Shown piece after piece: positions 27,757-30,555 of a DNA stretch of 64,000 bases (position 1 is its first letter; each line of letters opens with the position of its first letter). The DNA comes from Saccharothrix carnea (GTDB lineage Bacteria; Actinomycetota; Actinomycetes; Mycobacteriales; Pseudonocardiaceae). The stretch covers positions 186,001 through 250,000 of the forward strand of contig NZ_PYAX01000006.1 in assembly GCF_003014735.1 (NCBI RefSeq), in the 5' to 3' direction. The position numbers and the translations under genes are program-made. The notes under the pieces are model-generated. The model was not told the origin of the DNA. It saw only the letters and a list, made by a program, of their open reading frames with translations, and did no database searches.

Positions 27757-30078
27757 TCAGAGCTTCACGAGGGGCACGCCGCCGATGAGCATCAGCCGCA
27801 CCGTCCCCGCGCCGCCGAAGTCGATCGTGGCGGTCGCACGCGGCCCCGAGCCGTCCACGGCCACCACGCGGCCGAGCCCGTACTTGTCGTGGCTCACCCG
27901 GTCGCCCACGTCCAGCTTCAGCGCGGGCGTGTCCTTCCAGTTCGCGTTCGTCGGCGCGGGGCGCGACGGGCCGGACCCGCGGCCCCACGACGTCGGCGCG
28001 GACGGCGCGCTGCGCTTGGGCTCCACCCGCCGCCAGTCGAGGAGGTCGGCCGGGATCTCGTCCAGGAACCGCGACGCCGGGTTCGCGGACGGCTGGCCCC
28101 ACGCCGAGCGCACCAGCGCCCGCGACAGGTACAGCCGCTTCCGGGCACGCGTGATGCCCACGTACGCCAGGCGCCGCTCCTCGGCCAGCTCCGCGGGGTC
28201 GCCCAAGGCGCGCATGTGCGGGAAGACGCCGTCCTCCCAGCCGGTGCAGAACACCACCGGGTACTCCAGGCCCTTGGCGGTGTGCAGCGTCATCAGCGTG
28301 ACCACGCCATCGGACTCCGCGTCGGGCACCGAGTCGGCGTCCGCGACCAGCGACACCCGCTCCAGGAACGCGGCCAGCGAACCCTCGGCGGGCAGATCCC
28401 CGAAATCAGGAGATGCAGCCTCGTCGGGCGGGGGGGTGTTCAAGTCGGTGAACTCGCGGGCCACCGTGACCAGCTCGTTCAGGTTCTCCACCCGGGTGTG
28501 GTCCTGCGGGTCCTCGCTGGCCTCCAGCTCGGCCCGGTAGGCGGTCTTGTCCAGCACCGCTTCCAGGATGTCGGCCACGTCGTCGCCGCGCTCGACCAGC
28601 TCGCCGAGCTCGTCCATCATCTCGACGAAACCGGCGATCGCGTTGCGCGAGCGCGGGTTGAGCAGCGGCACCTTGCCCGTCACCGCGTCGCGCAGCGCCG
28701 CCGCGAAACCGATCCGCTCGCGCTCGGCGTACATCGACACGCACGCCTCCGCGCGCTCGCCGATGCCGCGCTTGGGCACGTTCAGGATCCGCCGCAACGA
28801 CACCGTGTCGTCGGGGTTGGACAGCGCCCGCAGGTACGCCAGGGCGTCCCGCACCTCGCGCCGCTCGTAGAACCGGACGCCGCCGACCACCTTGTAGGGC
28901 AGGCCGAGGCGGATGAAGATCTCCTCGAACACGCGCGACTGGTTGTTGGTCCGGTAGAACACGGCGATCTCGCCGTTGTTCGCCTCGCCCGTGTCGACCA
29001 GGCGGTCGATCTCGTTCGCGACGAACTGCGCCTCGTCGTGCTCGTTGTCCGCGACGTAGCCGACGATCTTCTCGCCGTCGCCCAGGTCGCTCCACAGCCT
29101 CTTGTCCCGGCGGTCGGGGTTGCGCGAGATGACCGTGTTCGCCGCGCTCAGGATCGTCTGCGTGGACCGGTAGTTCTGCTCCAGCAGGATCGTGGTGGCC
29201 TGCGGGTAGTCGCGCTCGAACTCCACGATGTTGCGGATCGTCGCGCCGCGGAAGGCGTAGATCGACTGGTCGGCGTCGCCCACCACGCACAGCTCGCCCG
29301 CCGGCACGCCGTCCGAGCCGGTCCCGATCAGCTCCCGGACCAGCGTGTACTGGGCGTGGTTGGTGTCCTGGTACTCGTCGACCAGCACGTGCCGGAACCG
29401 GCGGTGGTAGTGCTCGGCCACGTCCGGGTGGTTCTGCAGCAGCTCGACGGTCCGCATGATCAGGTCGTCGAAGTCGAGCGAGTTCGAGTCGCCGAGCCTG
29501 CGCTGGTAGCTCTCGTAGACCTCGGCGACCCGGCGCTCCAGGTCGTTGGCCGCGCGCTCCTTGGCGGTGGCCGCGTCGACCAGCTCGTTCTTCAGGTTCG
29601 AGATGTGGATCGCCAGCGTGCGCGCCGGGTAGCGCTTGGGGTCCAGGTCGAGGTCGCGCGCCACCAGCGTGATCAGCCGGCGGGTGTCGTCGGAGTCGTA
29701 GATCGAGAAGTTGGACGACATGCCGAGGGTCTTGGCCTCGCGGCGCATGACCCGGACGCACATCGAGTGGAACGTGGACACCCACATCGAGCGGGCCCGC
29801 GCGCCGACCAGGTCGGCCACGCGTTCCTTCATCTCGGCGGCGGCCTTGTTGGTGAAGGTGATCGCCATGACCTCGCCGGGGTGGACGTTGCGCTCGGCGA
29901 GCAGGTAGGCGATCCGGCGGGTGAGCACGCGCGTCTTGCCCGAGCCCGCACCGGCGACGACCAGCAGCGGGGCGCCCGAGTGCTCGACGGCCCGCCGCTG
30001 GGACGGGTTGAGGTCTTCGAGCAGCCGCGCGGACCGGGAGGCGGGGGGACTTGCAGGCAAGTCGAACAAGGCGCTCAT
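27757..30078 (-). CDS. pcrA: UvrD/PcrA superfamily 1 DNA helicase
   Basis: A 773-aa ATP-dependent 3'-5' helicase for repair and removal of nucleoprotein blocks (uvrD1 in mycobacteria). Motifs in order: Q motif LNPSQRRAVEH, Walker A GAGSGKT, motif Ia AITFTNKAA, Walker B VDEYQDTN, motif III VVGDADQSIYAFRGA, motif IV EQNYRST, motif V TLHTAKGLEYPVVF, and motif VI EERRLAYVGITRAR. The C-terminal beta-rich Tudor-like domain (DVGDRVSHDKYGLGRVVAVDG) binds RNA polymerase in relatives. Located opposite chorismate mutase as in M. tuberculosis. Confidence 0.96.
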   Translation of the reverse strand: MSALFDLPASPPASRSARLLEDLNPSQRRAVEHSGAPLLVVAGAGSGKTRVLTRRIAYLLAERNVHPGEVMAITFTNKAAAEMKERVADLVGARARSMWVSTFHSMCVRVMRREAKTLGMSSNFSIYDSDDTRRLITLVARDLDLDPKRYPARTLAIHISNLKNELVDAATAKERAANDLERRVAEVYESYQRRLGDSNSLDFDDLIMRTVELLQNHPDVAEHYHRRFRHVLVDEYQDTNHAQYTLVRELIGTGSDGVPAGELCVVGDADQSIYAFRGATIRNIVEFERDYPQATTILLEQNYRSTQTILSAANTVISRNPDRRDKRLWSDLGDGEKIVGYVADNEHDEAQFVANEIDRLVDTGEANNGEIAVFYRTNNQSRVFEEIFIRLGLPYKVVGGVRFYERREVRDALAYLRALSNPDDTVSLRRILNVPKRGIGERAEACVSMYAERERIGFAAALRDAVTGKVPLLNPRSRNAIAGFVEMMDELGELVERGDDVADILEAVLDKTAYRAELEASEDPQDHTRVENLNELVTVAREFTDLNTPPPDEAASPDFGDLPAEGSLAAFLERVSLVADADSVPDAESDGVVTLMTLHTAKGLEYPVVFCTGWEDGVFPHMRALGDPAELAEERRLAYVGITRARKRLYLSRALVRSAWGQPSANPASRFLDEIPADLLDWRRVEPKRSAPSAPTSWGRGSGPSRPAPTNANWKDTPALKLDVGDRVSHDKYGLGRVVAVDGSGPRATATIDFGGAGTVRLMLIGGVPLVKL

Positions 30079-30141
30079 CGCCTGTTCACGTTACCGGGTA
30101 CCCCCGACAGCCCGTGCCTGTGGCATGATGAGGCGGTGCGC

Positions 30142-30198
30142 ATGGCCCACTTCGAGTTTTTTTACGGGAACCGGACTCCGGCTCCCGTGGACCGCTAG
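30142..30198 (+). CDS. Phe/Tyr-rich leader peptide of the chorismate mutase attenuator
   Basis: ATG 30142 with GAGG 8 nt upstream opens an 18-codon frame ending in TAG 30198: MAHFEFFYGNRTPAPVDR. The control codons are Phe-Glu-Phe-Phe-Tyr (30151-30165). The two adjacent TTT codons are rare in this genome and create a 7-T run. It lies ~100 nt upstream of chorismate mutase, with a strong terminator between. By analogy with pheA-type leaders, ribosome stalling on scarce Phe/Tyr-tRNA would allow read-through. Confidence 0.85.
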   Translation: MAHFEFFYGNRTPAPVDR

Positions 30199-30248
30199 CG
30201 CCGACAAGCCACCACGAAGCCCCGGAGTCCTCGGACCCCGGGGCTTCG
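30173..30248 (+). promoter_or_regulatory. Transcription attenuator (antiterminator/terminator) of chorismate mutase
   Basis: Terminator: CGAAGCCCCGG (30215-30225) pairs perfectly over 11 bp with 30238-30248, extended by GTCC/GGAC inside. Antiterminator: GGACTCCGG at 30173-30181, inside the leader's Arg-Thr-Pro codons, is a perfect 9-nt complement of CCGGAGTCC at 30222-30230, which overlaps the terminator's 5' arm. The two structures exclude one another. No U-run follows, as is usual for this genome's terminators. Confidence 0.8.
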
Positions 30249-30294
30249 CTGCTGCCAGGGCTGGGACTCCAACCAGAGTCGAGAGGTCGTCACG

Positions 30295-30555
30295 ATGAAC
30301 AGCACCGAAGCCGCCCCGGACATCGATTCGCTGCGCCAGGAGATCGACCACCTGGACGCGGAACTGCTGCGGCTGGTCAAGCGACGGGTCGAGATCTCCA
30401 AGATCATCGGCGCGGCGCGGATGGCCGCCGGCGGCACGAGGATCGTGCACAACCGGGAGATCGACGTGATCAACCGCTACAAGGAACTCGGCCCGGACGG
30501 CCGCGACCTGGCGATGATCCTGCTCAAGCTGGGCCGCGGCCACCTGGGGCGCTAG
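30295..30555 (+). CDS. Chorismate mutase (AroQ type)
   Basis: An 86-aa all-helical AroQ-delta-type enzyme converting chorismate to prephenate, the branch to Phe and Tyr. The helix-1 region IDSLRQEIDHLDAELLRLVKRRVEISKIIG carries the conserved Arg/Lys. The C-terminal [23 protein letters not shown] is very like M. tuberculosis Rv0948c, whose C-terminus docks on DAHP synthase. Control by the leader upstream fits this role. Its last 32 nt overlap the convergent deacetylase gene. Confidence 0.95.
   Translation: MNSTEAAPDIDSLRQEIDHLDAELLRLVKRRVEISKIIGAARMAAGGTRIVHNREIDVINRYKELGPDGRDLAMILLKLGRGHLGR

Follow-up and report, generated by a model that had tools for sequence, protein, structure and literature searches.

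A predicted ribosome-mediated attenuator with a Phe/Tyr leader peptide ahead of chorismate mutase in Saccharothrix carnea and its relatives

Introduction

Does the DNA immediately upstream of a chorismate mutase (CM) gene in Saccharothrix carnea encode a leader peptide through which the supply of aromatic amino acids could govern transcription of that gene? The question was raised by a sequence-only reading of a 64,000-nt stretch of the genome, the whole of which we refer to as the window. That reading proposed a leader-peptide attenuator with Phe and Tyr codons directly ahead of CM. We followed the proposal up computationally, by folding, by comparison with related loci and by a search of the literature. 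The analysis leads us to predict a ribosome-mediated transcription attenuator ahead of CM, with a probability of roughly 0.85; its regulatory action is something that we infer.

Results

The chorismate mutase locus

The product of the gene in question scored above the cut-off for both TIGR01808 and PRK07857, and we take it to be a chorismate mutase of the AroQ type. Its sequence relatives of known structure are Rv0948c of Mycobacterium tuberculosis (PDB 2qbv, E 2e-34; also 2w1a) and the chorismate mutase 5hub (E 6e-21). The closest named relatives are from Saccharothrix, the CMs of S. luteola and strain NRRL B-16348 being 97% identical. Reading of the DNA bore out the gene start at 30295 and the placement of the leader device directly ahead of it. 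On the minus strand, a pcrA helicase gene (27757-30078) is divergent from the leader and CM. The features of the locus are given in Table 1.

Table 1. Coordinates of the leader features and of the chorismate mutase gene in the window
Feature	Position	Strand	Basis or remark
Extended −10 promoter element, TGG-CATGAT	30121..30129	+	Conserved in the leader alignment; −10 box itself at 30124-30129
Putative leader peptide ORF, VRMAHFEFFYGNRTPAPVDR; GTG start, stop TAG at 30196-30198, 20 codons	30136..30198	+	Start position conserved
Control codons TTT TTT TAC (Phe Phe Tyr)	30157..30165	+	Conserved in 86 distinct leaders
Hairpin 1:2 (30163-30169/30183-30189 plus 30171-30174/30178-30181), inside the leader ORF	30163..30189	+	Folding, covariation
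Antiterminator strand 2, GGACTCCGG	30173..30181	+	Pairs with 30222-30230
Antiterminator strand 3, CCGGAGTCC	30222..30230	+	Shared with the terminator stem, overlapping its 5′ arm
Terminator-like stem 3:4, without a U-run in the genus	30215..30248	+	Folding; one covarying pair
Putative CM ribosome site, GAGAGG	30281..30286	+	Sequence; similar in most rows of the leader alignment
CM gene, 86 aa	30295..30555	+	Presumed controlled gene

Immediately 5′ of the putative CM ribosome site, we observed a small GACTC-loop-GAGTC hairpin (30263-30280); a part of strand 2, GGACTC, recurs in its first half. The hairpin is present in many, not all, of the aligned Saccharothrix and Lentzea rows, and in read-through RNA it could act as a competitor for strand 3.

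Leader start and promoter

Relatives of CM were gathered by protein search from 25 of 25 genomes of the genus and from 44 named loci, chiefly of Saccharothrix, Lentzea, Umezawaea, Pseudonocardia and Mycobacterium. Removal of four weak or second CM hits (L002, L027, L028 and L029) from the 73 CM-hit loci left 69, with 60 distinct upstream regions. An aromatic DNA motif (F-F/Y-Y-G) was found in 59 of these 60, L067 reading FTYG. In a larger set, the strict motif occurred at 116 of 119 loci, corresponding to 86 distinct leaders; the three loci without it were L067, L098 (FFHG) and L123 (FPYG).

The leader had originally been read as an 18-codon ORF beginning at ATG 30142 behind a ribosome site. 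This ATG does open a frame, MAHFEFFYGNRTPAPVDR, that ends at TAG 30196-30198, but it is confined to some Saccharothrix leaders and is missing from L008, L013 and L017. As a start, ATG 30142 with its ribosome site was accordingly rejected: the ribosome site was not confirmed, and conservation falls on a GTG or ATG six codon positions upstream or so, at GTG 30136. An in-frame ATG or GTG stands at this place in 85 of the 86 distinct leaders, 6-7 nt after a −10 box and 18-24 nt ahead of the codon that corresponds to 30160; L111 has no start in range. The gap from box to start is 6 nt in 66 and 7 nt in 19 of these 85 leaders, a result that is informative yet not independent, being partly selected because the start-finding script tried gaps of 4-9 nt and picked the start by its −10 score. 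That scoring also rewarded the features seen in the boxes themselves, namely A at position 2, T at position 6 and a preceding extended TGn, the last in 83 of 85.

Since 6 nt separate the conserved start GTG 30136 from an extended −10 box, a spacing of the kind that would place the transcription start on the start codon, the leader peptide is most likely translated leaderless from this GTG, and the transcript probably begins at or beside it. The conserved promoter lies upstream of 30198.

Control codons

The Phe-Glu-Phe-Phe-Tyr codons of the sequence-only reading are present as TTC 30151, GAG, TTT 30157, TTT 30160 and TAC 30163. The first Phe codon, TTC 30151, is not conserved across families. 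Codon 30157 is TTT in 84 of the 86 distinct leaders and TTC in the other two. At 30160, Phe is encoded in 75 leaders, Tyr in eight and Ser in three, and at 30163 all 86 encode Tyr, both positions being partly fixed by the motif used in collecting the leaders. TTT is as rare as had been claimed, accounting for 7 of 381 Phe codons when codon use was counted on 39 long, high-GC3 ORFs of the window chosen by script. By sequence, the locus thus has a short putative leader ORF with tandem codons for a pathway product.

Alternative RNA hairpins

The whole stretch of the original proposal folds with a z score of −3.8, and one of 200 shuffles was as good. To evaluate the individual helices, we used an alignment, A2, in which 83 of the 86 distinct leaders (the stem finder failed for L071, L095 and L112) were thinned to 45 at 93% similarity. 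Hairpin 1:2 had a folding energy of −17.3 kcal/mol (z −3.9; 0 of 200 shuffles as good). Over the 45 sequences, 94.5% of its cells were paired, and it was the best of seven registers. Both-side changes occurred in 23 cells versus 9.0 in shuffles and affected three pairs, shuffles here and below taking no account of relatedness among the 45 sequences. The count of three such pairs was matched by 70 of 500 shuffles, and the remaining measures by five or fewer. The unpaired 1:2 cells of four Streptomyces-like hairpins are mostly an artefact, since their register was off by one base in the family energy test.

Strand 2 is the exact complement of strand 3, as expected of the 9-nt antiterminator that had been proposed. 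The antiterminator stretch 30171-30234 was less striking than the other elements (z −2.5; 4 of 200 shuffles as good). Among the 45 sequences, 91.8% of the cells of helix 2:3 were paired, and both-side changes were seen at five of its nine pairs. When a weak lower helix was included, pairing was 72.2%, with 26 both-side-changed cells versus 10.0 in shuffles. This lower helix, an extension of the antiterminator in the single-sequence fold (30186-30190/30211-30215), was rejected, as it was paired in 35.2% of cells and is at most a local addition.

We also compared the 2:3 energies of native arms with those of foreign and shuffled arms. As family means, 0.29 of foreign and 0.14 of shuffled arms were as good as native. 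The corresponding fractions were 0.04 and 0.01 in Pseudonocardiaceae, 0.04 and 0.03 in Streptomyces-like genomes, 0.21 and 0.22 in Mycobacterium, 0.26 and 0.32 in family f2, 0.73 and 0.06 in f4, and 1.0 and 0.40 in f12, in which the anchor was misplaced. The test was weak in several families, namely Mycobacterium, f2, f4, f16, f50 and f12.

Strands 1 and 2 lie within the leader ORF and constraints on peptide and RNA therefore overlap. This overlap bears on the idea that the nascent peptide itself is the sensor: FFYGxRTPAPV would stall the ribosome, possibly together with phenylalanine, a pathway intermediate or another effector, and the stall would in turn set the RNA switch. The residues after FFY are indeed conserved over several families (G-x-R, then P-V or A-V), and Pro-rich peptide ends can slow ribosomes. 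However, the conserved residues lie in the 1:2 and 2:3 strands, and in families f13 and f15 the change of Pro CCC to Ala GCC is accompanied by that of Gly GGG to GGC, such that GGG/CCC becomes GGC/GCC in keeping with the pairing demand of the RNA. Although the two kinds of constraint are not fully separable because both arms are coding, we regard peptide arrest as improbable.

The strong terminator that had been read at stem 3:4 held up in part. The stem is strong (30213-30250, −29.7 kcal/mol, z −6.8; 0 of 200 shuffles as good), but it is not followed by a U-run and a terminator scan did not flag it. On the raw MAFFT alignment, it received no covariation support because the 3′ arms were shifted by one column. 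After re-anchoring, 93% of cells were paired versus 51% in shuffles, and one outer pair was A-U in 26 and C-G in 16 of the 45 sequences; the five core pairs were invariant. Of the covarying stems by which the proposal was to be checked, 2:3 was thus found to covary, and the terminator stem contributed a single clear pair, after re-anchoring. These data describe a mutually exclusive antiterminator and terminator with covariation. Together with the conservation of the leader codons and the conservation and covariation of 1:2 and 2:3, they support the core of the initial reading, a Phe/Tyr leader-peptide attenuator before CM.

The stem could instead be an element of stability or spacing, with leader translation altering ribosome loading on CM, directly or by re-initiation. 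Such translational control would account for a stem that lacks a U-run in the genus, and it has been proposed that leader genes increase the translation of genes downstream of them (PMC4833913). It is opposed by the position of the putative CM ribosome site, which is outside the conserved pairings, and by the other family groups: in 7 of 13, at least one leader has four T or more immediately 3′ of this stem. We consider it very unlikely that translational control explains the leader.

Ribosome-mask folding and a proposed mechanism

The attenuator reading was further evaluated by folding the leader under a ribosome mask, whose assumed footprint reached 13 nt upstream and 15 nt downstream from the first base of the P site. 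For a stall with TTT 30157 or 30160 in the A site, before strand 3 was present, the probability of 1:2 fell from 0.95 to 0.05 or 0.02, respectively. Once strand 3 was out, that of 2:3 was 0.88-0.89. A stall at TTC 30151 left hairpin 1:2 at 0.88, this codon not being placed to mask strand 1. A stall at TAC 30163 lowered 2:3 to 0.55, and one at GGG 30166 lowered it to 0. With the assumed footprint, a ribosome stalled at the control codons would cover strand 1 while strand 2 stayed accessible, and the codons that are conserved are those placed to work in mask folding. This codon geometry points to Phe as the main signal and to Tyr as a partial one. The earlier notion of a signal shared by Phe and Tyr is therefore retained in that both kinds of codon are present, and modified in that the modelled geometry favours Phe.

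Once strand 4 exists, the finished terminator wins at equilibrium in every mask state. Before that, 2:3 forms readily even if no ribosome is present (0.84) or if one is stalled at TTC 30151 (0.88). Because equilibrium favours 2:3 early and the terminator late regardless of stalling, the switch would have to be kinetic, trapped by a 1:2 hairpin that has already formed. Release of the ribosome would have to be quick, since one waiting at the stop codon would still permit 2:3 (0.76).

In the mechanism that we propose, RNA polymerase would start on GTG 30136 or next to it, and a ribosome would load straight onto the 5′ end of the transcript. When charged tRNA-Phe is plentiful, the ribosome would pass TTT-TTT-TAC, hairpin 1:2 would re-form behind it, strand 3 would be free for strand 4, and transcription would stop after 30248. 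When tRNA-Phe is poorly charged, the ribosome would stall with TTT 30157 or 30160 in the A site and cover strand 1. Strand 2 could then pair with strand 3, and the polymerase would continue into CM.

Conservation within the order

To extend the comparison, we built a covariance model, R1, from 25 distinct upstream regions. At E 1e-3, R1 matched 237 of 298 genomes of the GTDB order, which is wider than the NCBI Pseudonocardiales, at least one match being false. The false match (L141, genome G091, E 6.5e-4) was an isolated hairpin after a tRNA-like stretch, with neither leader nor CM. Second R1 matches within one genome either overlapped the element on the opposite strand or lay elsewhere at E 7e-5 or worse; we presume that none is a second copy. 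In the window, R1 also scored weakly on the minus strand at 30208-30340 (contig C6, 216208-216340, E 6e-5), a signal that echoes the palindrome of the terminator.

CM itself (NF005894) was matched in 288 of the 298 order genomes at 1e-3, and order genomes with CM and without the element exist. Among the matches listed, the element was upstream of CM and on the same strand in 102 of 102 compared places, with 12-224 nt (median 49) between the end of the element and CM. These places comprise 101 of the 150 listed R1 order matches (of at least 237) and one, G052, from the class search, and were chosen because their CM matches were also listed. We also read 50 loci as sequence (30 including the window, plus 20), whose genomes partly overlap the 102. 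CM was next in 48 of these by tblastn, and in the remaining two, L105 and L115, by reading of the translation. The conservation of leader codons and pairings on which the proposal had been made to depend was thus found in the Pseudonocardiales and beyond.

These data bear on whether the pattern could be a product of chance, with hairpins and an ORF arising by accident in GC-rich DNA. At window codon use, five or more Phe/Tyr codons in 20 have a chance near 0.001, and a 64-kb window offers many places; Phe/Tyr richness by itself is therefore modest evidence, and it is conservation that makes the case. Conservation and covariation over many genera, with a constant place before CM, refute an origin by chance, to which we assign a negligible probability.

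In 20 CM upstream regions from order genomes without an R1 match, no Phe/Tyr leader was found by pattern, and the element is therefore missing or changed there. In three genomes of genus g72, presumed to be Corynebacterium (L149-L151), no such leader was found by pattern before CM. In genus g39 (L152-L154), the region upstream of CM retains a promoter-like box and an ATG that looks leaderless, and the ORF reads MVCP... with no Phe/Tyr run. Its sequence suggests a decayed or re-purposed leader.

Occurrence beyond the order and at other aromatic genes

In the class, R1 matched 53 of 296 genomes at 1e-3, order members included. In the phylum, it matched 11 of 198 at 1e-4, all inside the class. 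We fetched and read 20 of the class matches, which comprised eight Streptomyces-like loci, three from other families, four from family f31, three hairpins and two order members. By eye, the DNA of the eight Streptomyces-like loci encodes leaders of the form M-x5-F-x-F-T-Y-G before CM. The CM was identified with tblastn in four of these loci and with NCBIfam in another three; in L127, it was recognised by reading. In the three loci from other families (L136, L137 and L138), the element precedes CM by tblastn. L139-L141 (E 2.4e-4 to 6.5e-4) were isolated hairpins. The two order members, L142 and L143, have CM; in L142, the leader before CM reads RFIYGYR and no full 3:4 stem was seen, and this leader is perhaps a decaying copy.

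In the f31 loci (L132-L135), MRTAWSFWYGDG... stands ahead of a type I DAHP synthase by reading. The identity of the synthase was tested by NCBIfam search in L132 and rests on near-identical N-termini in L133-L135. At about 200-300 in the match direction, these loci have a leader, MRTAWSFWYGDGPVRTDR..., with Trp, Phe, Trp and Tyr codons and a strong stem. From its sequence, this is an apparent all-aromatic attenuator.

We also inspected the type II DAHP synthases of the window's genome, which occur at three places on contigs C3, C14 and C18 (L144-L148). In the 420 nt upstream of each, nothing was found for two and one unconvincing Trp-rich frame for the third. The latter, upstream of the C14 synthase, ends ...AFWWWT and is possibly a Trp leader. 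No match to a PRK08673-type DAHP synthase was found in the window's genome.

Discussion

The analysis describes a leader that is widely conserved and, judged by its sequence, very probably a functional attenuator of a known mechanistic kind. In the enteric pheL-pheA system, a Shine-Dalgarno-led leader with Phe codons acts through 1:2, 2:3 and 3:4 hairpins on the bifunctional PheA. The present leader shares this codon and hairpin logic before CM activity, but is unrelated in sequence and has a probably leaderless rather than Shine-Dalgarno start. The aroR leader of Corynebacterium glutamicum is likewise leaderless. It is also the closest likeness in other respects, as an actinobacterial leader peptide with adjacent Phe/Tyr codons (F-Y-F) before a gene of the aromatic pathway. 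Neshat et al. (2014) described aroR as an attenuator before aroF, as reported in the available portions of PMC4046766 and PMC11802643, and the latter adds that it responds to the availability of Phe, not Tyr, and also cites the enteric pheA attenuator. The targets differ: aroR controls the DAHP synthase AroF, whereas here CM follows in all of the compared places among the matches listed. For C. glutamicum CM, the control reviewed in the accessible text of PMC11802643 is that Phe acts on the CM complex with DAHP synthase.

Other attenuators show the same logic with different codons or targets. In Streptomyces lividans, trpL, leuL, ilvL and thrL have short leaders, several of them called leaderless, and some hairpins lack a U-rich stretch; of the eight leaders in Table 4 of that study, none is described, in the part of the article available, as Phe/Tyr-dependent or as preceding CM (PMC8079986). 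The ilvB1 attenuator of M. tuberculosis is also actinobacterial, with LVVI (branched-chain) codons and another target (excerpted in PMC13236596). The uORFC-13-1 motif of Acholeplasma likewise has a Phe-codon uORF before aroF, but belongs to unrelated bacteria, is led by a ribosome site and targets DAHP synthase (PMC8632094, as excerpted).

Neither the window nor six relatives matched any Rfam family at gathering score, the enteric pheA leader, T-box and known riboswitches included. At E up to 1, nothing credible was found in 30100-30320, the best hit (E 0.013) reaching 25.1 bits where the gathering score is 46. In the open-access literature searched, we found no CM leader attenuator in actinobacteria, and a paper on premature termination in M. 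tuberculosis (PMC10122055) may list a site upstream of Rv0948c. According to the available text of a 2005 comparative survey of actinobacteria, no conserved RNA structure was observed ahead of the operons for phenylalanine or tyrosine (PMC1262725), and a CM attenuator would therefore fill a stated gap. We conclude that this is a known kind of attenuator on a CM target, new within the literature searched.

The distribution prompts a broader and more tentative interpretation, to which we give slightly less than even odds. The leaders may form one ancient family of single origin, leaderless and tRNA-Phe-sensing, that extends over several orders of the class. It would stand before CM in most of the order and in Streptomyces-like genomes, would have been lost or replaced in some relatives, and would have a Trp/Phe/Trp/Tyr cousin before DAHP synthase, with the rare UUU fixed as a tuned sensor.

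A widespread CM attenuator would add a genetic layer of control at the branch point of Phe and Tyr synthesis. The CM leader would offer a defined target in strain work on aromatic products, and its fixed UUU codon would allow the role of codon choice in tRNA sensing to be tested cleanly.
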